Part shown: piece by piece, positions 3,360 to 48,761 of the stretch | Layout: every line of letters starts with the position of its first letter | How positions within the stretch are numbered: the first letter of the stretch is position 1 | Assembly (NCBI GenBank): GCA_015039465.1 | Contig: MU130011.1 | Location: 257,652 to 306,719 of the forward strand | Length of the DNA stretch: 49,068 nucleotides | Direction: 5' to 3' | DNA from: Phlegmacium glaucopus | Taxonomy: Eukaryota; Basidiomycota; Agaricomycetes; Agaricales; Cortinariaceae | Notes under the pieces: generated by a model | Told to the model about the DNA's origin: nothing | Database searches by the model: none | What the model saw: the letters and a program-made list of their open reading frames with translations, nothing else | Made by a program: the position numbers and the translations under genes

Positions 3360-3681
3360 TTTTGGGGGATTGTTGGTTGTTTGGGGTCGGGAAGTATCTG
3401 TGAATGGACTGTCAGAGTTGGCCCAATTTTGTGAAGAAGGGAGAGAAGAAGATATTAAAACTTATGTCTCATGTGTGGTGCCATGGTGTAGTTGGGGATT
3501 GACTGGAATATGCTGAGATGACGGTTGGTGGATGGAAGCAAAAAATGTTGATCATGTTTGCCAAGTCACATGGTCATGATTTGCGCAATGTGTATGAAAG
3601 AAAGTTTATGCAACAGCTTCCTCTTTTTCATCTTCAACCACCATTCCCTCACTCCACTCCCAACATCGCTACATCACCCCA
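3360..3681. promoter_or_regulatory. Shared divergent intergenic region
   Basis: These 322 bp separate the start codons of the two divergent genes and must contain both promoters. No convincing TATA box is seen; a pyrimidine-rich tract lies just before the + strand start (about 3,620-3,660). Confidence 0.4.
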
Positions 3682-5272
3682 ATGCCTTCCAAGTCTGCTC
3701 AACCCTCCAAGGCCAAGATGGGTGCCGCTGAACAACAAAAATATAACACTGATGTGGTTGGCTGGGCAAAGAAGCTGTGGGGAGCAATGAAGGATGGGAG
3801 TTATGCCCCAGACCACCAAGACTTTTTCGATGAGTTCAACAGGCTTCATGACACGTCTGAAGGCAGCCAGAGCACAAAAACCACCATGCTGGACCATGTC
3901 GCCCCGATTTACGATCATGTCGCATCGCAGGGCTATCAGCCCGATACCCATTACCAGCCTCTCAAAGTCGCTGTGTCCAACTTCTGCACCAACAAACCTG
4001 TGACCAAATGGGTTGGCCCAGCCGATCAGTGGAGCCGGTCGCCTTCCCCTACCTTGAATTCCCCGAAGCCGATGCCAACACCCACCAACAAAGTTGGTAA
4101 ACAAACCATGCCGCGCCTGAAGCCACAAGAACTCATGGCCTGCATTGTTGCAAGCAATGCAGGACCATCAAAAAAGGGCAAGTCAAAGGCCCCGATCTCC
4201 GAAGAACTGCTCCTATTGGAGGACGACACATTTTTTGGAGAACCGGAAACCAAAGCCCCACTGCCGTCACGGGCTTCTAAGCCTCTCCCCCCAACCAATG
4301 GGATGGAGACAAATAGCAGCAAGTGCAAAATATGCAGCCAATGTGGCCATGGATGTCACATCAATCCAAGGGCCACCAACGCTCTTGCCGCCTGTTTTGA
4401 GTGCAACCACTGGAAACTGAAGTGCTCTCTTGCAGGACCCCGGGTCAAGAAGCAGGCTGAGCCTGCTCTGGACGCTACCACCTGTATCAAAAAGCGTGCT
4501 CAGCCTGCTTCCGATGGCCCGTCCCATGACAAAAAGCTTGCTGAGCTGGCTCATGATGACAATGATGACATGGAGATCAAAGTTCCAGTTGCCAAACCTC
4601 GGAAGACACAGAGGAAGGCCCTGACTCAGCCCTCTCCTGGCCAGCCTGGCCAATACAGTGGTCAGTTGTTTCAATCCTTTTTTTCTTCTCTTTTTCAATT
4701 GATAGACACTCTTTCTAGTGGTGTCCTTCCCTTCTGATATTCTCAAGAAGCTCAAAGATTATGAGTCGGCAACATGCTGGCAGGATGAGAAAATCGAAGA
4801 GTTATCTCAAACGGTGGCCTGACTCACCCAAGAGAACCGGACAACATGGGAATGGTTTGATACCTGGGTCAGGTTGCTCTGGGAGAATGTAAACAGGCAG
4901 GATGAGAAGATTGGGGCAGCTGTCAGGGCCATCTGGGAACAGGTGGAGGAAACATCCCGACACGTTGCGTTGTGTGAGGCTGGAGACAAACTGGATGCCT
5001 TGCTCAAGGTCCCAGTCGGGCTCCCATATGAAGAGTCCATCCCCAAACCCTCCACTCCGACTCCGACTCTGACTCCAGCCTCCCCGACTCCCCAGCCCAC
5101 AACATCAGCATTGCTTCCCCCACTGGAGCTCTCGACCCCAAGAGCCGACTCCACTCCCATCAACATGTTCCCGATGGATTCCGACATGGATGAATCTCCC
5201 AAGTCCAACAAGCGGTCAGCGTCTAGCGTCACTCCTGGTCAGAGCAAACATCGTAAACTTGGGGAGTCATAG
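3682..5272 (+). pseudogene. Coiled-coil/cysteine-cluster protein with one internal stop
   Basis: Exon 1 (3,682-4,660) and exon 2 (4,719-5,272) join in phase across a 58-bp GT...AG intron to make 511 codons. Residues about 210-255 carry a cysteine cluster (KCKICSQCGHGC ... ACFECNHWKLKCSL) that may bind zinc. Exon 2 contains helical sequence (WENVNRQDEKI, WEQVEETSRHVAL), then a Pro/Thr/Ser tail ending in a basic KRSASS...KHRK segment. One in-frame TGA at 4,820-4,822 interrupts the frame (context V-A-stop-L-T-Q-E-N); it is explained by a CGA arginine codon mutated at its CpG. The same architecture (coil, C-x2-C...C-x2-C-x5-C-S-L, coil) occurs in the broken gene at 39.7-40.4 kb, so this is a dispersed mobile-element gene family. 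Role unknown; DNA binding is a guess. It is convergent with the TET/JBP gene. Confidence 0.7.
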
Positions 5273-10900: not shown

Positions 10901-13900
10901 AGAATATCCATTATATGACAGTGACTGTGGTGTGAATGACCCGTTAGTGCTAGGCCCAGAGTTCCTGCTGGGACCGGCAATTGGCTTCTCCTCTGTGTCC
11001 ATGTCACATCCATCAAAGGCTTCATATAGCAAGTTCTTCACGTCGGTCAGCGTCAGGGTGTCCAACTGGCTGTCGACCTGATACTTCCCTCAAAGCCTTG
11101 AGGTGTAAGATATGATGAGTTGCCGCAATCCTCTGTTCTTCCATGCTGATCATTAACAAACACATGGTCTGATTGGCCTTTACAACCTCCCCTAAAACAC
11201 TATGCAGTCTTTCCTTGCACACCGCCGATTTGCAGGTGTTCCGGGCGGTTGTGTCCAGAGGTGCAGTTCCAGCTCCAGGGGACGTGTGTTTATTCGGCCG
11301 AAGGGCACCATACTACCGATCGGACAATGTTAACAGAGTCCGGATCCACTGAAATAACTTACTTTGAAGATGTGCCATGAGAAGGCTTTCTCTCCGTCTA
11401 CTTGTACTTGTGGATGGCTCTGCCATTGGTCTTCCCTATTCCACCAATCATTGTAATACTCCTCGAAAACTTCAGTCGGGTCCTGGGGATCAGGTATATG
11501 TTCTATCTCCTGCCACATTGCCTTGGACAACGTAAATTCCGGGCCACCATTGGAGTGGATGGACTGTGACAGTCCCCGAAGGAAGTTGGGGATGTCGAGG
11601 AAAATATTGTAATAGGCCGCGTTATACCCGATGATGCCCATTGCAACATCCTACTTATAAATTAGTCTCACCTTTTTAAACTTTAACTTTGATGCACTTA
11701 CTAATTTGTTTTGCAAGCCCATCCACCACCACTGCACAGCTTCGGGCGGCGGTGCTGATATCGCCCATTTGCACAGAGCAGCCCGGAGCCTTGATGTCAT
11801 GTAGTTGAGCTGTGCCATCTCTTCATTGTCAGTTTTCCGTTGCTGGGACACTGGGAGATACTGGAACTTGTCAATGATTGTCGGTTTTTCACAGTCAGAC
11901 ATAGTGGTCATAGATCGTAAAAAAAAAGCGATCAATCGGATTTCAAATTCTGGATCGGAGTTACAATTGTGGGGAACCAAATACAGACGGATCAGAGTCA
12001 AAGTCGGCCCAGGTTTCCTTGAATACCCGCCTAGCTTGTTGGCCCATCTCTGACCACATTGCTTTTTGGCGTTCTGCATAAGCTTGATGTCCATCAGTCA
12101 ACTCGGGGTCGGACAATTGCCATGTGGTCCATTGGCTGTGCCGAAAAGTAAAATAGTTGGTAGCCCAATGCATTTCATTTCGAGTAAGAATTACTTCTTC
12201 CTGCCATCGGTGTAGTTGTGCCCTCACTCAAAGCCAATGGACCCGATAGACTGTTTTCATACTGAGTCGGGCACACAGAGAACACTGGAAACTCACATTC
12301 TGTCAGGTGGGTGTCAGTCGGCTCTACACCGTGGGTTGTCCATATCCAGGATAGTTGAGTTTGGCTGGACCCTGGAATATTGGGATTGGAAATAGCAGAG
12401 CTAACTTTGATGTCGTCGTAAGTAAGTTCCTTGTACACAGTCAGCTCGGCCGACTCCATGCCTAGGCTCAACATTGCATGTCGGGTCCGTCGGTAGAGTC
12501 TACATTGTAGAACCAAAGTCCTATGGACAGCTTGAATGGATGATCGGGTTTGGGCTCGACGGGCTTTATCATTTGCAGGCTGTAGAATTCTCTTGTACTT
12601 AAACGCTTCTTGACCAATTATGGTTCGTATTTCTGCAAGGCAATCGTTGGTGTGTCCCCTCCGTAGCTCAAGCTCCTTCTCCATGAACCGGGTGAGTAGC
12701 AGACGGTGAGGAGATTCTTGAGGGAGGGCGCGATGGAAAATAATTCCGGTCGGGCAGCATCAGCAGGTATTTCAGGAGGGTCAATCGGATCCCAATCCTC
12801 CTCAAAGTCGGTTTGGCCCAGCTCAATTAGTCGAACACATTCCATGAATGCCTCCCCAAGGTACTTCTGGGATTCTGTGTTAAACTTTGACATCGACTTG
12901 ACAAGATTGTCACGTTGTTTTCCCAATGATGAGATATTTTCTGCTGTTGGATGGTGCCTCATCCGGCTAAAAAATTGAACGATCTCCAACCTTCACCGAT
13001 CAGCAAGTGGGAGGATTCCAGGCAAGTTTGGATGGTCTTACTGTTGCTCCTCAAGCTTGAGACCGGCCATCAACCATGCAGTTTCCGCTGCAACCCCTCA
13101 CTCTTGCTTTTTCAACAAATCAAGTCTCTTCTCAGCCAAAGTCGGGACTGGCCATAAGGTAAGTCTCATAATATATCAATGGAGTGAACCGACCTTTTTT
13201 AATGTGAGGAGCCATTACATTCATCTCAGCTGGACACTTGGTGCGCAGGACTTCAGCCTCCGATATTTCCTTCTCCCATAGTGCCATCTGCTCAGCGGTC
13301 GGCACCGTTGATAAGTCCTGGAAGTATGCTGTGCTGTCCAGCTCATTTTTGATGGCCCGGTTATATTTGTTGATGATGGTTCGGGCTATTATAATTACAC
13401 AGTTTGAAATCTGCCAAGCCATAATGAAACAATTGACTCACTGATTGAAACAATTTTTTTCCAGTTGCTATCATTCATGTGATCATCCAGAACCTCCGAT
13501 CGGTGGGCAACTGATGCAGTTCGCATGCTTGGGGAAATGCTGTTTAAAGTACTCCACAATGTCTCCAGGATTTCCCCATCCACCATCCCTGCCCCTTTCA
13601 TGAAGCTAGTCGCGAACTGGAAGAAACAAGAATCTTGGTGGCCATGGACATGAATGGGGTGTCCTGGGGTGTCCTGGGATGTCCTGAGTAGTGATGTGAT
13701 ACTAACAAATTACCCAAGGCTACCTAGGGCCAAAATCATTTTTCCTGATGTCATTAACGAACGCACGGTCTGATTGGCCTTTACAACCTCCCCTAAAACA
13801 CTATGCAGTCTTTCCTTGCACACCACCGATTTGCAGGTGTTCCGGGCGGTTGTGTCCGGAGGTGCAGTTCCAGCTCCAGGGGACGTGTGTTTATTCAGCT

Positions 13901-16900
13901 GAAGGGCACCATACTACCAATCGGACAACATTAACAGAGTCCGGATCCACTGAAATAACTTACTTTGAAGATATGCCATGAGAAGGCTTTCTCTCCGTCT
14001 ACTCGTACTTGTGGATGGCTCTGCCATTGGTCTTCCCTATTCCACCAATCATTGTAATACTCCTCAAAAACTTCAGTCGGGTCCTGGGGATCAGGTATAT
14101 GTTCTATCTCCTGCCACATTGCCTTGGACAACGTAAATTCTGGGCCACCATTGGAGTGGATGGACTGTGACAGTCCCCGAAGGAAGTTGGGGATGTCAAG
14201 GAAAATATTGTAATAGGCCGCGTTATACCCGATGATGCCCATCACAACATCCTACTTATAAATTAGTCTCACCTTTTTAAACTTTAACTTTGATGCACTT
14301 ACTAATTCATTTTGCAAGCCCATCCACCACCACTGCACAGCTTCGGGCGGCAGTGCTGATATCGCCCATTTGCACAGAGCAGCCCGGAGCCTTGATGTCA
14401 TGTAGTTGAGCCGTGCCATCTCTTCATTGTCAGTTTTCCGTTGCTGGGACACTGGGAGATACTGGAACTTGTCAATGATTGTCGGTTTTTCACAGTCAGA
14501 CATAGTGGTCATAGATTGTAAAAAAAAAGCGATCAATCGGATTTCAAATTCTGGATCGGAGTTACAATTGTGGGGAACCAAATACAGACAGATCAGAGTC
14601 AAAGTCGGCCCAGGTTTCCTTGAATACCCACCTAGCTTGTTGGCCCATCTCTGACCACATTGCTTTTTGGCATTCTGCATAAGCTTGATGTCCATCAGTC
14701 AACTCGGGGTCGGACAATTGCCATGTGGTCCATTGGCTGTGCCGAAAAGTAAAATAGTTGGTAGCCCAATGCATTTCATTTCGAGTAAGAATTACTTCTT
14801 CCTGCCATCGGTGTAGTTGTGCCCTCACTCAAAGCCAATGGACCCGATAGACTGTTTTCATACTGAGTCGGGCACACAGAGAACACTGGAAACTCACATT
14901 CTGTCAGGTGGGTGTCAGTCGGCTCTACGCCGTGGGTTGTCCATATCCAGGATAGTTGAGTTCGGCTGGACCCTGGAATATTGGGATTGGAAATAGCAGA
15001 GCTAACTTTGATGTCATCGTAAGTAAGTTCCTTGTACACAGTCAGCTCGGCCGACTCCATGCCTAGGCTCAACATTGCATGTCGGGTCCGTCGGTAGAGT
15101 CTACATTGTAGAACCAAAGTCCTATGGACAGCTTGAATGGATGATCGGGCTCGGGTTCGACGGGCTTTATCATTTGCAGGCTGTAGAATTCTCTTGTACT
15201 TAAACGCTTCTTGACCGATTATGGTTCGTATTTCTGCAAGGCAATCGTTGGCGTGTCCCCTCCGTAGCTTGAGCTCCTTCTCCATGAACCGGGTGAGTAG
15301 CAGACGGTGAGGAGATTCTTGAGGGAGGGCTGAAGGAAGTGCAATGGAAAATAATTACGGTCGGGCAGCATCAGCAGGTATTTCAGGAGGGTCAATTGGA
15401 TCCCAATCCTCCTCAAAGTTGGTTTGGCCCAGCTCAATTAGTCGAACACATTCCACGAATGCCTCCCCAAGGTACTTCTGGGATTCTGTGTTAAACTTTG
15501 ACATCGACTTGACAAGATTGTCACGTTGTTTTCCCAACGATGAGATATTTTCTGCTGTGCCCCATCCGGCTAAAAAATTGAACAATCTCCAACCTTCACC
15601 GATCAGCAAGTGGGAGGATTCCAGGCAAGTTTGGATGGTCTTACTGTTGCTCCTCAAGCTTGAGACCGGCCATCAACCATGCAGTTTCCGCTGCAACCCC
15701 TCACTCTTGCTTTTTCAACAAATCAAGTCTCTTCTCAGCCAAAGTCGGGACTGGCCATAAGGTAAGTCTCATAATATATCAACAGAGTGAACCGACCTTT
15801 TTTAATGCGAGGAGCCATTACATTCATCTCAGCTGGACACTTGGTGCGCAGGACTTCAGCCTCCGATATTTCCTTCTCCCATAGTGCCATCTGCTCAGCG
15901 GTCGGCACCGTTGATAAGTCCTGGAAGTATGCCGTGCTGTCCAGCTCATTTTTGATGGCCCAGTTATATTTGTTGATGATGGTTCGGGCTATTATAATTA
16001 CACAGTTTGAAATCTGCCAAGCCATAATGAAACAATTGACTCACTGATTGAAACAATTTTTTTCCAGTTGCTATCATTCATGTGATCATCCAGAACCTCC
16101 GATCGGTGGGCAACTGATGCAGTTCGCATGCTTGGGGAAATGCTGTTTAAAGTACTCCACAATGTCTCCAGGATTTCCCCATCCACCATCCCTGCCCCTT
16201 TCATGAAGCTAGTCGCGAACTGGAAGAAACAAGAATCTTGGTGGCCATGGACATGAAACATCCCGATAGCCTTTTCAAGCTCGGCCGGGGGGAGGGAAAT
16301 ATAAGGGCTGGCAGCAAAACGTGATTCTATATGCTTGTAGTATTGACACACAATGTCGTAGATCTCCAACAGCTTGCAAACACTGACACAGTTAGTAGTT
16401 TGGTATGTTTCCGATAGGGAGTAGTCAATGCACTTCTGCTGTTCCCCCTTTGTAAAATTCACACAACTCGACGGTGCATAGCAACCATGCCGAGCACATG
16501 CATGCACTCTGATCCCGGTGATGTCTTTGATTCCCGATCCGGTGTTGGAGTCCAGAATGGCCTGAAAGCTACTTTCCAGCGATTCACAAGGATCTTTCTA
16601 GGAGATTAATTCAGAGTTGTGCCGGTCACCATTAACAAGAAAAACAACTTCTTTTGTCGCCTTGGCCTCTTTTATTTTTATGTGAGAAGCATAAGGTACT
16701 CTTGCTGTCATCATCCCTTCTCCATCAATTAACCAGACATCATCATGAGGTCGTGTTTGTTTGATGTGATTGGCTGTAAAGTTTCCATCGACCACAAAGC
16801 TTCGCATGGTTTCATGACTTGAATATTTCTTAAGCATTCAACAGGGAAGCAGAAATGGAACTCTTACGCGGTGTATCGTGTCATATGATCGGCTGGGAGG

Positions 16901-18989: not shown

Positions 18990-19522
18990 ATACACAGGTA
19001 GAACTGGCTGGAAATCGGGTGGTCACCCAACCAAGTATCTAGGGTGGTCAGTCACCCTGATTCATTTCCAACCCAAATATTTCCTACTGGCAATTGATTT
19101 GATGCTGACCCGGTAGGCCCAGAATGTTTCCAGATTATTTTTTCTAGCTACTGACCGAATATTTTCTAGCTACCGACCAATTTGATTCAGACCCAGGAGG
19201 CCCAAAGTATTTTCGGGCTAGCTACCAACTCGGTTGGGACTCAGTGCTGGCTGGGATATTTTCCAGCTGGCTACTAATTCTGACCCAGTCCAACATGTTT
19301 CTGACTGACTGGGTCATCATGCCAGTCCTGACCGGTTAGGTTGTCATCCCGATTACAGTTTCAGAACAGTCACCCGACTGTCCCTCCCTGGTGGGGCATC
19401 AGCTCACTGGTCTATGACCAACATATCCCAACCGTGAGCTTACTCCGCTGTTTGGACTACAACCGTACATAATGCGTTTTCGCCTTTCGGTCTTTGACCT
19501 GAGGAATGGGCTATCATATGTG
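18990..19522. repeat. Right-end repeat of the composite element, copy 1
   Basis: This stretch contains the left-block motifs in inverted orientation ('gacccggtaggccc', 'attttctagctac'). From about 19,030 to 19,522 it is about 95% identical to 26,410-26,905. Both copies end at 'ggaatgggctatcatatgtga', after which the sequences are unrelated, so 19,522 is probably a true element end or an insertion edge. It is non-coding. Confidence 0.75.
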
Positions 19523-22005
19523 ATCTGACAACTACACGATGCTTACCTATAACATACCAAACAATCCTTCTGCCCTCGTATGCACCTCCAATTTCCAACA
19601 TGAAGCTCATGCTGCTTTCTAATCGAATGGATCAATACTTGATACTGGAGCTAGCACTCATTTCTCTCCCGAAAAGTCCAAGTTCCTAAATTATCAAGAG
19701 ATCAATCCGGAACTGGTAAAAGCAGCCGATAGATGTACGTTCAAAGCCTTAGGGAAAGGAGACCTCCAAATAGAACTACCAAATGGAGATTCAAAACCCA
19801 CTCTCATTATGCTCAAAAATGTGTACTACTCACCAATGCTTGCTTTCACTCTCATATCTGTTGGAATCCTGGATCGAGCTGGCTATACCTTATATATTAA
19901 AACCGGTAAATGTGTAATCCAAAGCCCAAGAGGCAAAGCAATTGCCCAAATTCCACTCATACGAGGTTTATACCAAGTAAACCAACTGCTGAGGTTGATT
20001 AAATCACCCACTGCAAATGCTACAATCAAACCGATGTCAATTAGCAAGTTGCATAAGAAAATGGGTCACATAAATTGTGATGACTTATGCAAAATGGTTA
20101 GAAACGGAATGGTAACAGGAGTCGATATCAATCTCACTTCCAAACCCAAGTTTTGTGAACCCTGCATAAAAGCAAAAGCAACTCAGAAACCATTTCCTAA
20201 AAGAAGCAAAACCAAATATCAGCAATATGGTGATAAAGTGGTTGCTGATACCTGGGGTCCAGCTCCAGTAGAATTGCTTGGTTGAAATAAATACTACCAG
20301 CTATACCAGGACCTGTTGAGTCACGAGGAACGAGTCTACTTCTGTCAAGCAAAGTCAGAAGGGTTTGAAAACTACCAGAAGTATGAAGCTTGGGTAAAAG
20401 GCCAACATGGGACAACGATAAATATTTTTTGGATCTGATCGAGGTGGCGAATTCACTAGTAAAGTCTTCAATGAACACCTTAAAAAATCCAGAAAAGTTT
20501 GTCATCTCACTGTCCATGATTCTCCACCATCAAATGGATCAGCCGAACGAGCCAATCAAACACATGTCAAATGCGCGCTCGCAATGATAACAGCTTCCAA
20601 ACTCCCAAAAAACCTATGGGCCGAAGCTATATCACATAGCGTATGGATTCATAATTGTGTACCTACTCGATCTATAAATGAAAATCAAACCCCCTATGAG
20701 AAAGTGACCGGAAAGAAACCTGACCTTTCGCAATTGCACGATTGGGGGGCTACAGCTTGGGTGAAGAAACTAAATGTTTCTAAACTCAATTCTAAAGTTG
20801 AGAAGGGACATTTTGTGGGTTATGATGATGAATTGAAAGGTCTCAGGATTTACTGGCCTGAGAAAGGAAGGTTTCAATTGAGAGAGATGTTTATTTTAAC
20901 AAAAATGAAGTCTTACAATCAAGTGACGTCCAGGTTGAGGGGGAGTGGGATATATTCTCCAATTCAGGCGGTGCTAAAACACCTAACAACACTCTCAAAC
21001 CTCCTAAAATCACTCCCAATGAACCTAAAGTTCAAAATGAAACAAATCAACCCCAAGATCTCAACAATGAAGCTGAGAACTTACCATTTCCACCCAATGT
21101 TGAATCTCAAGTACCCAATCTACAACCAAACGAGTCTCAGTCTACATCCACAACTCGTCAAAAAGAGAGACAAAACTCACTTAAAGGCCTACAGCAATAT
21201 AATTCCAATGAATATGGTCGTGGAAAACGAACGTGAGAGAATGCAATAGTTAATCCTGATGTTCTAAATTCAGCATGGAGAAAGTGTTTTCACAGTTGAA
21301 ACAAGCGAAGACCTAGAGCCAGGGGGAGTGGAGTTGAATGTTTGTGAAACTGAGTGGTTTCACAAAGAATTGGAGACGGCAATGGTCGCTAATCAAGAGG
21401 ACAAACCCACCTTAAGAGAAGCACTTGGCGGTCATGAGAGAAAAGAATGGATGGATGCAATAGAAGCGGAACTTACCCAGATTGAAAAGTTACACACCTG
21501 GGACCTTATTGATACACAACATAGTACCAATGTGATACCATGCTGATACATTTTTCACTGTAAATGTGATGCCGATGGGAATATTGCTTGATATAAGGCT
21601 AGCTTAGTCACAAAAGGGTATAGACAGGAGTTTGGTGTCAATTACACTGAAACTTTCGCTCCCACAGTCCGCCCTGTAAGCCTATGCATCTTATTGTCTT
21701 TTGTTGCTCAAAAACATGCTTTTATTCATCAAATTGATGTCAAAAATGCCTATCTTAATGCCTACCTACAAGAGGATGAAGTGATTCACATGAATATCCC
21801 CCCTCTATATCATGAATTTCGCAATTTACCCAACAATTTGTGAAATACCAAGAATCTAGTATGTTGACTTTGTCGCCCACTCTATGGGACTAAACAAGGT
21901 GCTTGCGCTTGGTACCTTGAAGTTGTCGACACATTTACTGGACTTGGATTTACGGTTTCAAAGGCTGATGAAGCCGTATTCTACAAACTCGACAATGATA
22001 AGTAC
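19523..22005 (+). pseudogene. Copia (Ty1) retrotransposon: protease, integrase and first half of RT, decayed
   Basis: The order of domains is Copia: protease (SILDTGASTHFSPEKSK, about 19,630), GAG-pre-integrase zinc knuckle (LHKKMGHINCDD...FCEPCIKAKA, about 20,045-20,180), integrase core fragments (20,280-20,900), and reverse transcriptase (YKARLVTKGYRQEFGVNY; IHQIDVKNAYLNAYLQEDE, with the first catalytic Asp; 21,590-22,005). Gag and the 5' LTR are missing. Multiple stops and frameshifts interrupt it, including TGA at 20,282, 21,544 and 21,589. In the 21,540-21,600 stretch the expected arginines are repeatedly Cys or stop, as CpG decay would give. The normal reading stops exactly at 22,005, in the middle of RT (FYKLDNDKY); the rest is in the mirror block that follows. 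Confidence 0.85.
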
Positions 22006-22380
22006 TGTTAGGGAACGTAAGGACCCAGGAACCAAGTTGAATTCTAAGGTGGTTATCAAATATAACCACCTTACACCTATATACTACAAGTGTGTGAGCC
22101 AATATGACTATATATGGCTAGGGCATAATAGAAGGTAGGGTGCGTGTGATAAGTACAAGAATAGAAACTGACATCTCACGATGTCATTGGCGAAGTGTCA
22201 ACTACTACAACAATAAGAGGGAGTCTTTCTCTTCTTCATTATTCATATTATACTACTGACTTTCCTGAATGTGGAGTCACTATTATTTGTGACTCCACAG
22301 TGTATTTGCTCTCACTAGAAATTCATTTTTCTTTAATACATTACAATTCATTTACCTATTCATCACATTAATCAAGTTGT
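22006..22380. mobile_element. Mirror-image Copia 3' LTR
   Basis: Read backwards from 22,380, this begins TGTTGAACTAATTAC directly after the mirrored polypurine tract (22,381-22,389, gagggggag) and ends ...GGGATTGT at 22,006. The terminal CA would be supplied by 25,212-25,213 if the block were put back, making about 377 bp. Read forwards, the same DNA begins TGTTAGGG, which looks like an LTR start by chance. Confidence 0.7.
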
Positions 22381-23742
22381 GAGGGGGAGTTCTGTTTATA
22401 CCCCAATTGCTTCGGGTTCTTCCAGAGCTTTTCGTTGTTTAAACAAAGCGCGTTCACTAAATCACTTCTATAACCGTTAGTATAACCTTCATCCCGTCAT
22501 GAACTATTTTTATACCGACCTTCTCTGTCAAACTGTTTACTTTACTTTTACTCACAGCTATACAAACCACACTGGCACTTTACAAGTCAGAAACCTGTTT
22601 GTCTATCGTGGAACTAATAGTGTTTTCTCTCATCATCCATTTCATTTTTTCTTTTATAATCTTTTAAGTCTCTCTTTGAATACTTAGGTATTATACAGGA
22701 ACCTTCTTACTCATTCCCGTTGTATAAGTCGAAGCCACGACCTATTTCACTACTGTCCAACGAAAAATGTCGAGGTCCTCTGCTAAGGTTGCGGTTATTT
22801 CATATACTTTGGCCTATAACTCACAGCTACATCTACCCTCCGGGTCAGACGTAACCTTATCGGTCAATAGAACGACACTCATGACGGGTTATATTCAACA
22901 TCCAGAAATCTTGGATTATTTATGAACTTTTGTGCTTACTGTCGAAAATTCACTCAACATACCCCCCAAAGTTCTATGACTCTGTTCCAACTTTGTCGTT
23001 TACTATACAACCCTGCTCAGTAATGTCACTGCATGTATTCGCTCGACTAGTAAAGTGTCATGAAGTAGAAGAGTGATCCCCATTCCTCCCATCCGCTTTA
23101 CGGAGCACTCAGGCCACAATTCAGCTAAGACCCAAGGTTGCCACATTGACGTCATACGCTCAGAAGATTTGGTTTTGCTTGTTATTAAACAAGTTATATT
23201 CTGTTAACCCTATCTCTATAACATACTCAAAACTCTAGCGACTATACTAAATTTAGACGTATTCGTACCAAAAACGTTAAAAATAGATAATAAAGTCGTA
23301 TTTATAATTAATTACGTGGTTATTGACTAATTATGTTGACTATTATTTATTCCCTTAGTCTCAACAGATGGGATGTTGACGACTAATCTGGATAATGACA
23401 CACTGAATTTACGTATATCAATTATTCACACCAGTTATCTGATAGTAAACAATGTGATGTTTAACGTACAGACCTAATTTTGGTTATTTAGGTACTTATA
23501 GGAATATCTGAACCGTGTCCTTTTCAATTTATTTGTTATAACCCAATCGTTTACAGTACCCCACACTAAAACCTCGTTGTCTTATAATAATTATTTATAA
23601 GTCCCCTTCAACCACGGGATCGTTGTCACCTTCGTCTTATTGGTTCTATCACCTTGGTACACTAACACACCCTTAGTACTACTAATTCCTATCCCCCTCA
23701 CGACTTGTTAGTATTTCTAACAAAGGTCCGTGTTATCCTCCA

Positions 23743-24239
23743 GAAATGTGAGGGGGTGTAACAGACCGGCCTTAAGGCGACCTGACTGGCCTCAGGCCAC
23801 CTTCAGGCCGCCTGAGGTCGCCTGAGGTCTTTTCAGGCCAGTCTCAGGCCACTCTCAGGCCACCTTCAGGCCACCTTCATGTTTTATACGGACATAGGGG
23901 AGGATTGGGAGGATTGGATTCTTGCGCGATGGCGCGCCTGTCTTTTATAGGGGTAGGGATTTATAATTAGGATTCGGGATTCGGATTCGGGATTTAGATT
24001 TATATTGGGATTCGGATTGGAGATTTAGATTTATATTGGGATTTAAGGTAGTTTTCAGGCCGCCTACAGGCCACCTTCAGGCGGCCTGACACTGGTCTGT
24101 ATGTCAGGTCCGTAAAAAGATGAAAGTGGCCTGAGACTGGCCTGAGGCTGGTCTGAGAGTGGCCTGAGAGTGGCCTTAAAATGGTCTTAAAATCACCTCA
24201 GGCGGCCTGAAGGCGGCCTGTTGCACCCCCTGACATTTC
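23743..24239. mobile_element. MITE-like element rich in GGCCTGA/TCAGGCC repeats
   Basis: The 497-bp element has long terminal inverted repeats: the left starts GAAATGTGAGGGGGTGTAAC, and the right end complements it as GAAATGTCAGGGGGTGCAAC. Subterminal arrays of 'caggccacctt' (left) and 'gtggcctgaga' (right) are mutually inverted. The centre is AT-rich with 'attcgggat' and 'tttatattggga' direct repeats. No coding capacity. Because it lies in the mirror block, its true termini would be these read backwards (ACAGTCCCCC...). No clear target duplication was found. Confidence 0.75.
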
Positions 24240-24617
24240 ATGTGGTGTTATCCGTGTCAAGGGTGGTTCTCCCCACCTTTGATGGATTTTAATCCTTGTA
24301 CCCCGATTTTTATCTTGTTGGGGATACAAAGGTCCTTGTTACTCACGTGTACCACGGTCTTGGTTTCATTCCCATGGTCCTTGGTCATATAGATAAAAAC
24401 CTGTAATAGATAAAAATTTATAGAGTTTACATATTTTATGGAGGGTCCCAAACATTTATCAGTCTTTTAACCTAAGAAAGAAAGGGGGGGAGTAAACGTT
24501 GGATCATGTCGAGTGACAGAATCTGTAACTCGTTCTTGTGAACAGAAACTCATCACCTGTAACTTTTATTTAGTCAAAGAGTCTCAACAAACTGAACAAC
24601 GTTATTAACAACTTAAC

Positions 24618-24765
24618 AACATTTTCAACAACAACACAATTTCAGTATCGTCTTCGTTCTCCCGAAGAACACATACGTTAACACAATTTCAGTATCGTCT
24701 TCAAACTCAGAAGAACACATACGTTAACACAACTTCAACATTGTTTCAGAACCTGAAAACACATG
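24618..24765. repeat. 46-bp tandem repeat, about three copies
   Basis: 'gaagaacacatacgttaaca' followed by 'aatttcagtatcgtcttc' recurs with a period of about 46 bp at about 24,664 and 24,710, with a diverged third copy and a partial first one. It lies in the insertion within the mirror block and has no coding sense in either direction. Confidence 0.7.
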
Positions 24766-25211
24766 TGTTTAACATTTAGTTAGTCATTTCAGAATCCTTA
24801 AGAAACTGACTAACAACCACGTTCGGTATTTAACGTTTTGGTGAATTTTCAAACTAGTAGGAAGTTAACTAGGTTTAATAACAACAACAACACACATAAT
24901 CAACTTCACTTAAAGTTTCAGAACCTTTCCAATATGAAAGATCTTTTGGGTTGAACGTAATAATTCTAACATATTTCATAACTAACTCAATAACAAAACT
25001 CATCTCTAAAAATATTAGAACTTTTATGTGGAAAAGAGTTGTTGGAGACACGTCAATGTAGTAGCGCACACTAGAACTGAGGTTCGTTGGTCAATTACCC
25101 AGGTTCTAACCATTAGAGCTTAACAACTACTTAAACGACAAACTTTTTAAGTTGGCTAAACAGTCTTAGCCGTTACTATCACTTTAACAGTCAGTGTCGT
25201 CGTTGTTACTA

Positions 25212-26001
25212 CATGAACAATCCCCTGTGAGTAACACAGACGGGGATCAATGCGAATCGATGAGTATGGAAGTGAAAATGAGATGTTAACATAGTGAGTG
25301 GTGCAAGGGGTAGGATGGGAAATGCAAAAAAAAAAAAAAAAAAAAAAAAACTATGGACCAACAAGTCTTAGCTTCAGCTATCTATCTTGCCATACCTTGC
25401 TCCTGGATCGCACTCAGTCCCCTATCCTCACTCATCTACCTCTTATCTTATCATTCACTGCCAAAACCATCATTCACGTGGTACCTGAAGCCTTCCCACC
25501 CTCCTTATGACAATTTAGGAAGTCCAGGAGGATCTACACGACTAAGCAGGAATTGCAGATGAATCAGCAGCAGAGGATTATTCTCGCAGCATGTCAAGTG
25601 TTATCAAGGCTGCGCGACATGGGACCATGGGCAAGTAGTATTTTCTCGGGAACAAGGCTGCGCCTTTCAAGTGTTGACTCAGGACCTTTCACATTTTTGA
25701 CATGACCACACGCCTATGGAGTTGATATATTTTTGCTATTGGACTATGTACACTGCCTTCTCTTCTTTTCTCTCGCACTTTGACACTTTACAGATTTTTT
25801 TATTGTTCCTTCTTCTTTTCCATTGTTCTTTTCTTCTCGCAGCTGTCCTCTCTTCATCATTCTTCCTTTGACAGCGCGTACTTCTTTCTTTTTTTTTGTT
25901 TTACATAGCCTCATCCTTAGGGTATAAATACTGCTCTTTTGTACCAGGATAGGTAGTTCAGTTCAATTCATTCTTACCCCCCACATTCATCATCTCAGTG
26001 G
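25212..26001. other. Non-coding spacer with 25-A run
   Basis: This follows the mirror block. A run of 25 adenines occupies 25,326-25,350, possibly the tail of a retroposed sequence. No gene is recognised. Pyrimidine-rich sequence from about 25,740 to 26,000 may belong to the upstream part of the LTR that follows; its left boundary cannot be fixed. 'tataaata' at about 25,924 is a TATA-like box and would suit an LTR promoter. Confidence 0.45.
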
Positions 26002-26409
26002 AATTCCAGTGAATTCCTCCCTTAAGTTCGCTTTTCTTGCCCCTTACTGTCAATCTATCCCCTATCCCTCAACCGCTATAGTCTTACTGAAGACTCCCTC
26101 TTGCTCATCCTCATCCTCGTCTTATACCTCATTCATCTTCCAAGACCTTCATCCTCTTCCTTAACCCCTCTGAGTTCGCTTTTTCAGTCCTTAACTTTCC
26201 ACCCTCAGTTCGCTTTTTCAGTCCTTAACTGTCCACCCTCAGTCACCTTTCATATTCATCCTCATCCTCCTCTACTCTCTCTTAACCAAGTGTGCTTACT
26301 AGTCTCTGGTTATACCTTCCCTAAACGAACACAGGGGGATATTCTGACCTAAAGTCTGGTCCAGTTCCCTCTGGTTGGTGTTTTATAACAACACAAACAA
26401 CGATTTATA
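26002..26409 (+). mobile_element. Partial LTR, inverted copy of the one at the window's right end
   Basis: This sequence matches the reverse complement of 48,762-49,068, from 'aattccagtgaattcctccc' through to 'cgatttata'. The shared ends are very similar; the middle differs. Here 26,168-26,240 holds a 36-bp tandem duplication ('gagttcgctttttcagtcc') not present in the other copy. It is directly joined to the second right-end repeat, with no internal retrotransposon region, so it is probably a solo LTR inserted into or next to that repeat. Confidence 0.7.
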
Positions 26410-26905
26410 CCGACCGAGTATCTAGGGTGGTCGGTCACCCTGATTCATTTCCAACCCAAATATTTCCTACTGGCAATTAATTCAATGCCGACCTGGTAGG
26501 CCCAGAATGTTTCCAGATTATTTTTTCTAGCTACTGACCAAATATTTTCTAGCTACCAACCAATTTGATTCAGACCCAGGAGGCCCAAAGTATTTTCGGG
26601 CTAGCTACCGACTCGTTGGGACTCAGTGCTGGCTGGGATATTTTCCAGCTGGCTACTAATTCTGACCCGGTCCAACATGTTTCTGACTGACCGGGTCATC
26701 ATGCCAGTCCTGACCGGTTAGGTTGTCATCCCAATTACAGTTTCAGAACAGTCACCCGACTGTCCCTCCCTGGTGGGGCATCAGCTCACTGGTCTATGAC
26801 CAACATATCCCAACCGTGAGCTTACTCCGCTGTTCAGACTACAACCGTACATAATGTGTTTTCGCCTTTCGGTCTTTGACCTGAGGAATGGGCTATCATA
26901 TGTGA
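26410..26905. repeat. Right-end repeat of the composite element, copy 2
   Basis: About 495 bp, about 95% identical by eye to 19,030-19,522, in the same orientation and with the same terminal sequence 'gggctatcatatgtga'. Most differences from copy 1 are CpG transitions (for example 'tcccgatt' against 'tcccaatt', 'aatgcgtt' against 'aatgtgtt'). No KDZ gene is attached to this copy. Confidence 0.85.
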
Positions 26906-31748: not shown

Positions 31749-33962
31749 TTAGGTTAAACGCTTCTGAATCTTGGCAACCGCAGGTGCTGGACGTCAGGGG
31801 TAAACGTGAGTTGTTCGGGGATTAATTAAACACATTTGCGTACCGACGAGTGGAAAGTGACCACCAAGCCTGGTCATCGCATACAGAAGAATAGCAAGAT
31901 CGTTACGCAATTCGGTGTGATCTGCCAGCGGCCACGAAACTCGGAGAGCGTCCGAGTCCCTGATGAGAATATCTGCAACAGACCACCAACATGGCTGCGT
32001 AAAGGTAAATCAATATGTGCGTGAGAATAGAGTATATTCTTACCCCGATGATGGGTTCAAGGAAGGCAAAGTCACCATCAGAAATATGCTTTACAACAGA
32101 TATGCATGCTCGTGAAGCTTGTGAGCACTTTTCAAAGGACACTGCGTCACCCAATGCAAACGTGCGGTGAAGATGAATCATAGCGGTATGGGCGAGGCTA
32201 TAGACAATAATCAAGCCATGTTTTTCGTCCGGTAAAAGCGCGTCCAGTTGAGTGATAGGAATCAAAGTCGAGAGGAAGAGGGTAATAGTGTGCTCAAGAG
32301 TCTGAATCTCATCACTTAGCTGGGAGGATTTCGTACCTGCGAACCCTTGAGTATCTAGTTTGCATGAGGGTGAAAGAAATTTACAGTTCGCAGAGAGGTG
32401 ATCGGCATGTGCGAAAAGGGCCGAGGCTTTCACGCGAAGTGCTGCAATCGAAAAACTAGCAGGAGAGACTGATCCGGAAAGGAATGCACGAATAGTTGGT
32501 AATGGCGCAGCTGTGTCAATGTGACCCTGTACTCACGTGTTGTAAATACAAGATGTTGAAAGGTAGAAAATTGTAAACTGACATTCTCATAATAGTCAAC
32601 ATCTTGCGGCCAAGGACAACATATGGAATGGCGAGAATCGAGTTTGTCTGGAATGATGCACGGCTTGCGAAGCACAACTGACCAGCATCGATCAAGGTTG
32701 TATACTTGCCAGAAAGCCAATATTTTCTCTCCTTCGCGGGTGTCACTTTTTGGAGGTTTAAGGTCGGATTCCACGGCGTCGACTGTCCAATTCCGAGTAT
32801 TGGAATAGGTTATTCCACCAAGATCGGTTTGTACGGCCAAAGCGGCCGCAGCACTGGCATGGTAACTGCCTTCTAGAAGACGCCCGTTGGCTAGGAAATA
32901 CATCGAAATCAGGCAGGATGCTTGAACAACATCAATGACCTTGTTGGGCGACTGAAGACCGTGTGGGAGGGCCTCTAACGAGCGTTGGAGATAGTGCTCC
33001 TCATGCTGGCATAAAGGCTCAGGTCGCGAAATAAAGCACGCCCATAAATATATCGCGTTCATAAGGACAGGGTGCCTTTGTTCGGACGACGGTAGGCTGA
33101 GGCTTTCTCGAAGACGACCCATGTGGATTCCCAGACCGCATTGATGGCTATGGGGAGCGAAGATGTCCAATCTAGGTGGGAATCAGTGCATCAATAATAA
33201 GCCTCGGTAGACGTCAGAAAACAAGGAAAGAAGTACAGCATTTGTGCAAGCTCCATTGGTTGTTGAATGCGTGTTCGATGGCCATTGAAGAAAGTCTCAG
33301 GAATAAAGGGTGTCGATGAAGGAGAGGGTAGGCCCTTCGTGCGAAACAAGATAAGTTCAGGCAATGTAATGAGGTTTGACGAGAAAGGCCTACCTGTATC
33401 TGGGACCATGACCCTGGTGGTGGCGACGAATCTATATGATAATGAGCTCGTTTGGAGTCAATAAATTGCCACCACGAACCTGAAGGAAAAGGAGAATGAG
33501 ACGCTGAAAGATGTGAGCTTTCAGGAGACCCGAGAGATGAGGATGAAGAATTAGAGCGCGAATGAAGGTTGGGGTCATATAATGTGACAGAAGTCGACAC
33601 ATATTCTGGATCTTCTAGCTCCCGGATCCTATGTTCGAGTTTGACAATGGTCTCGCGAAGGATTTGAGTGCGAGTCTTGCCCTTTCCATCATCATACTCA
33701 CACCCCTCGGCTTTCTTAGCCCTCGTGCACTGCTGGCAAGCGGGCTTGACACCGTCACACCTCTAATTATACATAGGCAAGAGATAAATGGGGAGAAATC
33801 CAGAGAACTGCGTTTTTATTACCATCTTTCGTTTCCTGGCCGAAAGGTGAGTTGAACCGATTGATGAAAGGAAAACGGTATTAATACTTGCCTGCATCGT
33901 AAGCAAGCCTTTCCCCTTTGCAAAGTGCCTTGTGACCCAGGCTCTTGAGGTTGGTTGGTCAT
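31749..33962 (-). CDS. Zn(II)2Cys6 fungal transcription factor with fungal-specific TF domain
   Basis: The start is the ATG at 33,962. Exon 1 (33,962-33,892), a 13-nt exon 2 (33,835-33,823) and exon 3 from 33,762 join in phase to give the zinc cluster CLRCRKRKMRC...CQQCTRAKKAEGC, with all six cysteines, then a dimerisation coil (ILRETIVKLEHRIRELE). Intron 1 has a GC-AG donor (GCAAGT). Later exons encode the fungal-specific transcription factor region: 'LDIFAPHSHQCGLGIHMGRL', 'EGSYHASAAAALAVQTDLGG', 'FWQVYNLDRCWSVVLRKP'. C-terminal exons splice through 'PIIGPCWWSVADILIRDSD' to 'AVAKIQKRLT' and a TAA at 31,751-31,749. It should bind DNA as a dimer in the nucleus; target pathway unknown. No damage seen, and the spacing and exon quality suggest a working host gene. 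Confidence 0.85.
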
Positions 33963-44145: not shown

Positions 44146-45684
44146 TCAACGAGCTGAGAGCCTGAGGCGGGTGATGTGAGATTGAAAGGTAACGTGAGCA
44201 AGGGGCTTTGTAAAAATATCTGCTGTGTTTTTGGTTCTGGGAATGTGATTGATGATGAAGGATTTTGATTCAATGTGCGAGCAAATGAAGTGATAATGAA
44301 TGTCGATGTGCTTAGCTTTACCGTGGTTGGAATTGTTGACAGACAAGCACTTGGCGCCATTGTTGTCTGTGCAAATAACAAGAGGACTTGGGCAGTCAAT
44401 TTGAAATTGGTTGAGAGACTGACGCAGCCATACCCCTTCCTGAATGGCATGAGTGAGGGCAACATACTCGGCCTCGGTTGTAGACAGGGCGATGCAATTT
44501 TGCTTCTTGGTGGACCAACTAATGGGGCCACCGCCCATTGACCAGAGAAAGCCCGATATGGAGGTGCGGTCCCTTTTATCACCAGCCCAGTCTGCGTCCG
44601 ATAAGCCAGAAAGTGGGAGACTAAGACTGTCACCACCATAGTGAAGGTGATACATTCGAGTTCCTTTAAGGTAGCAAAGGACTTGTTTGGCTGTAGCAAA
44701 ATGGCGGGGCTTGGGAGAAGAGCAATGCTGAGAGAGTAAGAGAACAGCAAAGGAAATGTCTGGGCGAGAGCAAATTTGGAGAAATAACAAGGAGCCAACC
44801 AGATGTTGAAAGGACTTTGTGAGATTTACAATGGAGGGATGAGTATCCTCAGGAAGCCCAAAAGGGTGGTCATGTTCAAGGGGGGTTTTAATAGGATTAC
44901 AATTGGTGAGGTCATATTCAGCAAGGAGAGTGTCGGTGAACATTTCCTGATGAATCCAGAGCTCCCGAGTCTCCAGTCGACGTTCAAATTGGTTGCTGAG
45001 AAAACAGCGAAGAGGACTGAGATCTTTGATCCCAAAGGCCTTTTTGATCTCACTTTTTATGAAGTCCAAAAACAACATGGAGGTGCAGCCTGATAGACCA
45101 TCATCGACATGCATTGCTAGAAGGCAATGTACATCTTCTCCCCCCCATGACCGTTTGTAAACGAAGACAGTGTGATCAAACTCGGAACGTAGAAAGCCAA
45201 GACTCTCAAGAACTTTCCAAAGGAGATTGTACCAGATCAAACTGGCTTGTTTCAGACTGTATAGCAATTTCAGTAGACGCCAGATGCCGCGTAGTCCAGA
45301 AGGAGAAGCGTACCCAGGAGGATACCGCATATAGATGGTTTGAGTGAGGTCTCCCCAGAGAAAAGCACGAGTCGTGTCAAAGCACTCTAGGTGCCAGCTG
45401 TTGAGAGCAGCATGCACCGCGATGAAGCGAATCTCACAGATTTCACAACAGGGGGCAAAGGTCGCATCGTAGTCGATGAAGAGGATTTGGGAGAACCCTT
45501 GAGCGACTAGACGTGCTTTGTGAACAGGTGGGCCACCATCGGGATTGAGTTTGAACTTGAAGACCCATTGGTTACCAATGGCTCTCCTTCTCTCTGGCAA
45601 CAATTCTTCAACATAGACACGCATCAGTAAATTTGGGGTCCGCTTACCGGCACTGGACAGCACTGGGCAGCGCCATAGTGCCAT
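44146..45684 (-). CDS. Copia reverse transcriptase-RNase H, uninterrupted frame
   Basis: A 512-codon frame without stops. RT blocks: 'GNQWVFKFKLNPDGG', 'HKARLVAQGFSQI', 'LECFDTTRAFLWGDL' (the catalytic Asp, with T-T replacing the usual V-K), 'LLYSLKQASLIWY' (usual R/A-W-Y pattern), and 'AMHVDDGLSG' (the VDD active site). RNase H: 'SDADWAGDKRDRTSISG', 'ISWSTKKQNCIALSTTEAE', 'CTDNNGAKCL', 'KHIDIHYHF', ending 'NTADIFTKPLAHVTF'. The first 20 or so codons (to about 45,625) come from inserted DNA, not Copia. It lies 5' of the LTR at 43,822. Compared with the other mobile genes here, this one is remarkably undamaged, so it is recent. It is separated from its protease-integrase part by about 1.2 kb of insertions. 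Confidence 0.88.
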   Translation of the reverse strand: MALWRCPVLSSAGKRTPNLLMRVYVEELLPERRRAIGNQWVFKFKLNPDGGPPVHKARLVAQGFSQILFIDYDATFAPCCEICEIRFIAVHAALNSWHLECFDTTRAFLWGDLTQTIYMRYPPGYASPSGLRGIWRLLKLLYSLKQASLIWYNLLWKVLESLGFLRSEFDHTVFVYKRSWGGEDVHCLLAMHVDDGLSGCTSMLFLDFIKSEIKKAFGIKDLSPLRCFLSNQFERRLETRELWIHQEMFTDTLLAEYDLTNCNPIKTPLEHDHPFGLPEDTHPSIVNLTKSFQHLVGSLLFLQICSRPDISFAVLLLSQHCSSPKPRHFATAKQVLCYLKGTRMYHLHYGGDSLSLPLSGLSDADWAGDKRDRTSISGFLWSMGGGPISWSTKKQNCIALSTTEAEYVALTHAIQEGVWLRQSLNQFQIDCPSPLVICTDNNGAKCLSVNNSNHGKAKHIDIHYHFICSHIESKSFIINHIPRTKNTADIFTKPLAHVTFQSHITRLRLSAR

Positions 45685-45689
45685 AGTAT

Positions 45690-46365
45690 AAAGGGTCCTT
45701 TATTTACAGTGCTGTCAAGCATCACAGTCACACTATGGAATGATATATATTTACTATACAGTACTATACATTACTATACAGTGCTATATAGGGTAGGGTT
45801 AATATTACTATTATTACAATATACTTTGGTCAATCTGAGGCTAGAAAGCTATGTTCACGCAAGGATAAGGAAATTTAATATGTATAAATCATATTCAACT
45901 ATCTACACAGAGTCTGAGTCATATGTACTACTCTAACTATCAATAGTAGGTTCATCATCTGCTGTTGTGTGTCGAAAACAGGCAGAGGTGGTTGGAGTGT
46001 TGAAACAGCCTGAAACGAGCCCCCCACATCCCATTTGGATGGGGAGGAGGGGCTGGGTAGTTGAGGTTGTCGAAACTGTAGCTAAAAGTAGAAAATTGTT
46101 AGTTTTAAAAAAAGCAGTAAGAAATTTGAAGAACTCACCTCAGCCACCAGTGCTCAGCGCTCATTGTTGTTTCGTACCTCCTGGGGCTAAGAAGCAGGTA
46201 TACGATGTGTTGTTTGTGTTGCTGACAGTCATGGTAACGTGCCGAAAACGGGTGGATATCAAATGTACCGAAGCGAACCTATTTCGATGGGAGGAGTTGA
46301 GAAGTGATGAAGGTGTTGTAGCTACTAGCTAAGAGTGAGTATCTAGCATCGTCAGTGGTAGAACC
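45690..46365. mobile_element. Unidentified insertion inside Copia
   Basis: About 0.7 kb between the Copia RT frame and the palindromic MITE. It includes repeats of 'actatacagt' at 45,752-45,790 and no credible gene; the ORF at 45,967-46,332 has no motif. Its left edge near 45,640 carries 'ggcactggacagcactgggc', resembling the CACTGCTGGCACTGGG terminus of the neighbouring MITE, so related elements may be nested here. Confidence 0.45.
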
Positions 46366-46368
46366 TAA

Positions 46369-46806
46369 CACTGCTGGCACTGGGTGGTGTTTCCCTTAGA
46401 AAAACTTATTTTTAGACATGTTTTGTCATTTCCAAATAATTTTTCTCACAAAAACATAAAAAGTATTTCTGAAGGAAAAATTCTAAAAATACATCAGGTG
46501 TTTCTCATGTGTTTTCCAAAGATAAATCTTATGTTTTTTAAAAGGTTTCCTTTCAGAAACAGCAGAGAAACACTTATTTCACCAATCACTGAGTGGAATA
46601 GGTGTTTCCCTGCTGTTTCTGAAAGGAAAACCTTTAAAAAAACATAATATATCTTTGGGAAACACATGAGAAACACCTGATGTATTTTAAGAATTTTTTC
46701 CTTCAGAAATACTTTTTGTGTTTTTATAGGGGAAATTATTTGGAAATGACAAAACATGTCTAAAAATAAGTTTTTCTAAGGGAAACACCACCCAGTGCCA
46801 GCAGTG
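46369..46806. mobile_element. Full-length palindromic MITE with 3-bp TAA target duplication
   Basis: 438 bp that are nearly a perfect inverted repeat over their whole length, centred near 46,588. Termini are CACTGCTGGCACTGGGTGG and its complement, flanked by TAA on both sides (46,366-46,368 and 46,807-46,809). A 3-bp TAA/TTA duplication fits PIF/Harbinger-type Tourist MITEs; the CACTG terminus with a 3-bp duplication also fits CACTA elements. Transcripts would fold into a hairpin of about 200 bp. Confidence 0.9.
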
Positions 46807-46822
46807 TAAGCAGTATTATTAA

Positions 46823-48754
46823 TTAGTTAAAAAACAAAAAAAAGGAATGAAACAGGCTCAACATGCAACACCAGAGTGTACATGGCAGTGGTATCCGCAT
46901 TTGGATGTGCCATGGCCTCGCGATGATTTGCAGGGGAATTGTTAGGTCATAGCCAGGATTGTGGGGATTCCTAGCAATGTCGCTGCATAGGGAAAGAAGT
47001 GCAAGTTTGATGCTTGCATCCATGTCACGCTGAAGGTAACTCTGGACATCAAGAGAGGCAGCAAGAGACGTGAAATTGCCAGTTTCATCAAACAAGTCAG
47101 GTAGATCACAGCAAAGATACAAGAAGTCATCCGCTGCATCGTCGCTATGATCGTCAATTGTTAATGCATCTTCCCTATCAGCTATCATGGAAACTTGTTC
47201 TTTTGAACAACATTCAAGTGCCGCCCTCTGCTCTTCCCACCTCTCCTTGTTTGCTCTGATCCTCTCCAAGTGCTCTTTTTCTGACTGAATAGATTCAGTG
47301 TATGCACGACCTTTGGTAGTAGACGGTCGGTTGCTACGAAGGGTGATAGTGGACCTGGTGGAACATTCGGTCGGGACAGGAGGTGAATCTACAATCACAT
47401 CAGATGCAAGAGTGTTGGAGGGGGTGTCGTTGACAGTAGCTGGAGGAAGCAACGACCCAGACAAAGGAGGATCTTGAGAGGTGGGAGAACTGAGTACAGA
47501 AGGAGGGAAAGGCGGTGAAGAATAGTCAACAGGAGCGGAAGAGATTTCATGTATGGCATGATACGGAATATTCTCATCAAAAATGACGGATCCAGAGTCA
47601 AAGAATTGATGGGTGGCAAGCGAACGCACACAATATCCCCTTCCCGATGGAGGATATCCCATAAAGAGACATTCTACGGATTTGACTCCCAGTTTCGTTT
47701 GGAGTTTAATGGGAACGTGTGCGAAGCATCTAACTCCCAAGACTTGTAGATGCGAGACATCAGGTTTGTGATTTCAAAAGACTTCAAAAGGAGTGACATT
47801 TTTTGGGAGAGTCGATGTAATGCTGAGATTGTACAGGTATGTTGCAGTGAGTGCCGCTTCACCCTAGTATGTAAGTGGCAATTGAGCAGCAGTGAGCATA
47901 GCAAGCATCCTTCCTTGGATGGTTCAAAATACTCGTTCCATTTTGCCATTTTTCCAATGCTTGTAACAAGGCATGACGTCACGCTCAATGCCATCCTTTT
48001 CCAAAGCCTGAACAAACTCATTGCTCCCAAGTTCGCCTCCACCATCAATTCTCAGCTTGATAACTTTTTCTCTGGTCTTCCGTTCCCAGTTAGCCTTTGT
48101 GATACACCATGCTTGATAAGCCTGGTCCTTCCTCGATAAGCAATGGATCTTTAGAGCATCGGAGAAGTCGTCAAGGAAACCGACAAAGTACAATTTCCCG
48201 TGAGGTGTGGAGACTGGAAAGGGACCACAGAGGTCACAGAAGATGAGTTCGAGAAGCTTTGTTGACTTTGGAGTATTTGATGATGGATTTGGGGCTTGAG
48301 AATGTTTGCCGATGATGCAAGGCTCGCATTTAGATAACTTGTCACCAGGAGGGAACATGACGCCTTTTACTGAATGAAGTAAGTTCTTTGTTGTGTTTTC
48401 ACCAATATGTCCCATTTGATGATGCCACAGATCCATTGACTCAGCAACTTTACTGAAGAAGGCAGTCTCAGGAGGATGAATCCCAGGGGCAGGGATGAAT
48501 TCGACATTCACAAAGAAGAGTTTATTTTGTTGAGTTCCTTCATATATCTCTTCTCTCAAACCATCCTTCAACTTTCTAGTTATTATGAACTTTCCATCTT
48601 CGAATATACATCCCACTTTGCTCCCACTTGTTGTCATTCGACCAACCGATAGAAGATTAACACATGCATCAGGCGCGTGAAGACAGTCACGAAGTTTGAC
48701 GACTGCCATCTTTCCTCTCAAAGTGAATCGGACAAGACAGTCACCACTAGCCAT
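46823..48754 (-). pseudogene. Copia protease remnant and integrase, decayed
   Basis: Minus strand: protease C-terminal end (LRDCLHAPDACVNLLSVGRM), pre-integrase zinc finger (LWHHQMGHIGENTTKNLLHS ... KCEPCIIGKHSQ), integrase core (LELIFCDLCGPFPVSTPHG with the catalytic Asp, LRIDGGGELGSNEF with the second, GKMERVF at the third region), then 'VRCFAHVPIKLQTKLGVKS', 'FMGYPPSGRGY' and a long acidic linker. A TGA at about 47,925 sits where Arg is expected (F-R-T-I-Q), and frameshifts follow to about 47,740. Gag and the protease active site are absent, replaced by an LTR of a different family. It belongs with the RT at 44.1-45.7 kb. Confidence 0.85.
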
Positions 48755-48761
48755 GGTTCGC

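Follow-up and report, generated by a model that had tools for sequence, protein, structure and literature searches.

In the 49,068-nucleotide stretch of Phlegmacium glaucopus DNA analysed here (assembly GCA_015039465.1, contig MU130011.1, positions 257,652 to 306,719 of the forward strand; hereafter the window), a block of about 3,100 nt at positions 22,226 to 25,325 (each end ±1) is written in reversed but not complemented order, and it carries in this mirrored form part of a decayed Ty1/Copia-type polyprotein gene. We consider the block, with a probability of about 96%, to be an assembly error, in which long reads extended a contig end into a gap and the added sequence was put in backwards, likely by gap-patching software. 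A preliminary description of the window, made from its letters, had claimed a block reversed without being complemented, and this is borne out by the motifs quoted there, by protein matches, by DNA copies and by composition, which all agree.

The forward part of the gene (19,524 to 22,005, plus strand) is in normal orientation, contains the Pfam domains Pol_BBD, gag_pre-integrs and SH3_retrovirus, and is matched by Copia copies as written. The quoted motifs were looked for in twelve frames, covering the window in its written, reverse-complemented, reversed and complemented forms, and IIVAAV, FEITNLGPINWLLG, IVSWSCKKQP, TLSSTEAEYVAL and NIFTKSLARNKFVAF were found solely in the reversed string, at 25,211, 25,121, 22,785, 22,749 and 22,473, respectively. 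The protein search with the reversed string that had been proposed as a check did lead to Copia proteins, with 283 matches for the longest reversed reading frame (247 amino acids), many of them carrying RVT_2 (best E value 4.2e-111, 72% identity); Pfam assigned no family to the 247-amino-acid piece itself. The Pol domains are thus in order, with Pol_BBD, gag_pre-integrs and SH3 in the forward part and matches to RVT_2-carrying proteins in the reversed block. When 120 listed proteins were compared by tblastn with the block as written, none matched on either strand (0/120), so that the Copia matches from the plain or reverse-complemented string that the preliminary description had named as evidence against its own claim are absent. 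The forward part (19,600 to 22,005) was matched by 30 of the 120, and the reversed block by 120/120, which is true by construction as the proteins were found with the reversed reading. An ordinary biological inversion shares with the block that the order is flipped in place, but a true inversion would be a reverse complement whereas the block is a reverse only, and it was rejected because the block as written matches none of these proteins on either strand. A mirror repeat of the H-DNA type, misread by chance, was rejected as well, since the second mirror arm was not found in the window and the reversed window gave no match to the window at E 1e-3. Both explanations are left with a negligible probability.

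The DNA comparison used five further Copia copies (L030-L034): a forward-part probe had matched ten places, and longer stretches were taken around five of these other than the window's own. The forward part matched these copies as written, at 83-89% for L030-L033 and 73% for L034. Positions 25,211 down to 25,062, the mirrored end of the reverse transcriptase, matched all five only when reversed (90-93% for L030-L033, 75% for L034), and the same held for positions 23,240 down to 22,226, the mirrored RNase H and C-terminal part (87-89% and 74%, respectively). Homology-free support came from a 5-mer Markov composition score in segments of 400 nt, in which negative values mean that a segment reads better reversed. 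Normal segments of the window scored +13 to +14, with 3-5% of them below zero, and 12 of the 16 segments over 22,001-25,400 were negative, indicating reversal; segments of an insert termed Z are among the four non-negative ones. Two segments outside the block were negative too, 21,801-22,200 (-6.4) and 26,001-26,400 (-2.4).

The preliminary description had placed the ends of the block at 22,005/22,006 and 25,211/25,212, and these have to be corrected to 22,225/22,226 and 25,325/25,326 (±1) on the basis of an inserted element, X, whose intact copies measure about 330 bp. Three such copies (L055-L057) follow the window as written as far as 22,225/22,226 and then continue reversed from 25,325/25,324 to 25,217/25,216, fitting across both block ends to within 1 base; the match to a copy on contig C51 also ends at 22,226. 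Accordingly, the first ~220 nt of X (22,006 to 22,225, plus strand) are in normal orientation, the best 40 of 294 candidates including 20 copies that match the written form at 91-95%, with a single match at 78% for the reversed form, and its remaining ~109 nt (25,217 to 25,325) are mirrored, the three X copies continuing there reversed at about 93%. The reported join of the gene from 22,005 to 25,211 without a lost codon does exist, but it is the insertion point of X and not the seam, with AAGTAC on both sides (22,000-22,005 on the plus strand, and 25,212-25,217 in the reversed block). The gene appeared to stop and resume without loss because X sits between these two copies of AAGTAC. As the left seam cuts through X, the reversal must be later than the insertions inside the block.

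On its right the block borders on exactly 25 consecutive A (25,326 to 25,350, plus strand). In the assembly as a whole, the written strand has 157 exact 25-A runs and the other strand one; for exact 24-A runs the counts are 0 and 1, and for exact 26-A runs 72 and 1, the last being expected when the base beside a 25-A run happens to be A. Since genuine poly-A tracts should be present on either strand, this one-strand bias leads us to take the runs of fixed length and fixed strand as gap placeholders. Beyond the run follows the start of the next assembled piece (25,351 to 26,162, plus strand), in normal orientation and cut inside a repeat, W, whose probe matched mostly at 95-98% among the best 40 of 813 candidates. 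To the left of the point equivalent to 25,351, the five W copies examined have other sequence, which is common to them.

A right-way-round copy was found on contig C51, of which positions 1-2,268 correspond to the reversed window from 24,493 to 22,226 with nine mismatches and no gaps (99.6%), an inserted repeat Y with its insert Z included. The copy goes past the seam along Copia to C51 position 2,374, collinear with L030, L032, L033 and L034, and probably represents this very locus, or a second allele of it, in un-mirrored form. Two of the nine mismatches are at most 9 bases away from the far tip of the patch, and the other seven are all transitions. The fetched stretch (L071, C51:1-4,500) is a contig end, and transitions away from the patch tip fit a second allele or copy. 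A real DNA process creating reversed, uncomplemented copies could be considered, as the block is indeed of this form and diverges from the other copies about as much as the forward part does. Such a process is hardly conceivable given that the reversal postdates nested insertions, that it ends at a placeholder and that most of the sequence has a normal copy, and to our knowledge no polymerase or ligase makes reversed, uncomplemented copies.

The defect is not confined to the window. With one normal Y copy as a yardstick, 21 loci were tested, and at 10 of them one part of Y was normal and the other mirrored. Because L019/L026 and L022/L025 each show one place in overlapping stretches, these loci amount to eight distinct places (on C21, C226, C144, C171, C47, C148, C186 and C241), at which the two parts fit together, lacking 0 to 10 bases or having at most 4 in common. 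A ninth block outside the window, on C198 (L011/L024), was mapped via L061, and the remaining mirrored Y places stayed unmapped as the fetched stretch showed no seam. The ten blocks, including that of the window, are about 0.9 to 3.1 kb long, all score reversed by composition, and each joins normal sequence directly at one of its sides. The other side is formed by an N run in seven, by exactly 25 A in two (the window and C148) and by 15 A in one (C241; the run at L037 2,574-2,588 ends this block instead of 25 A or N). Because block ends fall exactly on the N runs, we regarded these as gaps of the assembly; they could in principle be masked sequence instead. Nine of the ten blocks thus show the arrangement of a gap-filler patch, continuous at one end, with the opposite end at a gap or placeholder, the tenth being the one that ends at 15 A. 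The assembly or handling error that the preliminary description had listed as its first option is therefore supported by the 25-A run at the block end, by the un-mirrored C51 copy and by the nine other blocks, eight of which end at N or 25 A, and the mirrored blocks are a recurring defect of this assembly and not biology. A scaffolder that placed whole contigs reversed but uncomplemented, with no gap-filling step, should also produce exact in-place reversals ending at gaps; however, a gap or placeholder would then be expected on both sides, whereas all ten blocks join normal sequence gaplessly on one side, with the seam inside a repeat unit, and this explanation is improbable. Still less probable is a deliberate edit or simulated decoy introduced after assembly: a script would indeed yield a reversal exact to the base, but many contigs carry blocks touching N or 25-A runs, an editor would have had no reason to follow gaps, and an edit of the single window would leave the blocks on other contigs unexplained.

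To see what lies beside placeholders in general, ten of the first 25-A sites listed were sampled, one per contig (L061-L070) and chosen regardless of content, with the window's own site and C22 left out. Four of their twenty 800-nt flanks scored reversed, namely the right ones of L062 and L063 and the left ones of L068 and L069, vs 1 of 95 normal segments. Independent evidence backs three of these four: L062 has ankyrin repeats, L068 contains W in mirrored form, and L069 shows a mirrored self-match. In L062 (C5:281,900-285,900) the stretch 1,974-2,699 beside the 25-A run encodes ankyrin repeats on the bare complement (Pfam E value 9.5e-48), and Pfam found nothing above the cut-off in its plain reading. 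A protein search with this plain, nonsense reading for deposited false gene models gave 0 matches among 7,992 candidates scored, which is uninformative as to their presence, and Pfam on one reversed frame of L069 showed nothing above the cut-off. The right flank of L066 contains mirrored matches near its 25-A run, yet its 800-nt score is positive. Mirrored patches therefore reach beyond transposons, and not every patch is mirrored. In L070 (C24:47,000-51,000) the last ~900 nt score reversed without touching the 25-A run of this locus and may belong to another gap further on.

Normal sequence thus reaches about 22,225 inside X, the next ~3,100 nt continue it in reversed order and stop at exactly 25 A, and normal sequence resumes at 25,351. 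From these observations the following course of events may be proposed. The patch was probably assembled from long reads that extended the contig end, and a strand slip, either complementing without reversing or reversing without complementing, could have made the mirror. The tool may have been PBJelly or another gap extender of its kind, and where the placeholder is bridged there would be an "overfilled" gap, possibly with a wrong scaffold join; the C51 copy also suggests that the connection of the patch to the sequence right of 25,350 may be wrong. According to the accessible text of a study that includes C. glaucopus, hybrid assemblies of the Joint Genome Institute were built with ALLPATHS-LG, and PBJelly was then used to patch them with PacBio reads, the hybrids being unnamed in that text, and LTR (long terminal repeat) insertions in C. 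glaucopus were dated (PMC7550596). In the available part of its description, PBJelly treats 25 or more N as a gap, extends flanks and reports overfilled gaps, which are partly attributed to scaffolding errors (PMC3504050). The window resembles the extended or overfilled gaps as portrayed there in its read-extended contig end, its leftover gap and the 25-base threshold, and differs from them in that the placeholder is 25 A, not N, and the extension is reversed and uncomplemented (PMC3504050). Among the literature matches listed, as far as their available text goes, neither reversed, uncomplemented assembly blocks nor 25-base fillers were reported.

Within the block the preliminary description had recognized the missing Copia half in order and largely in one frame. 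The Copia parts are indeed encoded in the reversed reading, the reverse transcriptase end at 25,062 to 25,211 (read from 25,211 down) and the RNase H and C-terminal part at 22,226 to 23,240 (read from 23,240 down, supported by motifs, protein and DNA matches), but the reading is broken by the inserted repeat Y and contains at least one in-frame stop. Y (~1.3 kb) lies mirrored in the Copia gene at 23,241 to 25,061, flanked by a 5-bp duplication (TAGCG), and contains insert Z at 23,739 to 24,244, mirrored as well. A reversed Y1 probe gave matches of 99-100% throughout the best 40 of 232 candidates, and Y was found as written, in part or completely, at 17 other places among the best 40 of 294 candidates. 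A first impression that only the Copia parts are mirrored and the repeats within the block are normal was dropped, as the reversed repeats are the common form and the as-written copies a minority. The element resembles Ty1/Copia in having gag_pre-integrase and SH3-like domains in the forward part and, when the block is read backwards, the end of a reverse transcriptase and an RNase H; unlike a typical member it is decayed, carries nested inserts, has no identified LTR and is half mirrored in the record. The LTR claimed by the preliminary description was not found, and neither was a flanking LTR pair for Copia, for which the fetched copies reach too short a way upstream to show one. Two direct repeats of 497 bp (19,027-19,523 and 26,410-26,905), 96% alike and LTR-like in appearance, have the Copia family between them; as the LTRs of this family they were rejected, because three other copies go on further upstream, past this position, with sequence common to them.

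Elsewhere in the window, a 2.5-kb direct repeat is present at 11,150-13,654 and 13,751-16,257 (97.4% identical, 96 nt apart), and ~450 bp at 46,365-46,810 match their own reverse complement at 91%. The open reading frame at 3,598-4,734 finds its six best protein matches in P. glaucopus, an agaric (the first at 95% over 87%), with no identical annotated protein among the matches. A second Copia lies in pieces on the minus strand at 44,149-48,760, with RVT_2, SH3-like and gag_pre-integrase domains and an integrase match just below the cut-off, and a fungal-specific transcription factor domain was found on the minus strand at 32,433-33,182 (E value 9.9e-12). Rfam and transfer RNA scans of the window gave no matches.

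Ordinary similarity searches miss mirrored sequence, so that genes and transposons inside such patches would be silently lost, and false gene models on nonsense sequence are possible. The assembly is likely among those on which comparisons of mycorrhizal fungi have drawn, and further backwards stretches elsewhere in it would bias the numbers of genes and transposons counted. Affected assemblies could be screened for by one-strand exact 25-A runs together with a k-mer score favouring the backward reading. It is conceivable, at somewhat less than even odds, that a strand slip in a widely used gap-patching step wrote mirror patches invisible to BLAST, host genes included, into published hybrid assemblies, including the present one, which would lower their gene counts and distort their transposon counts.
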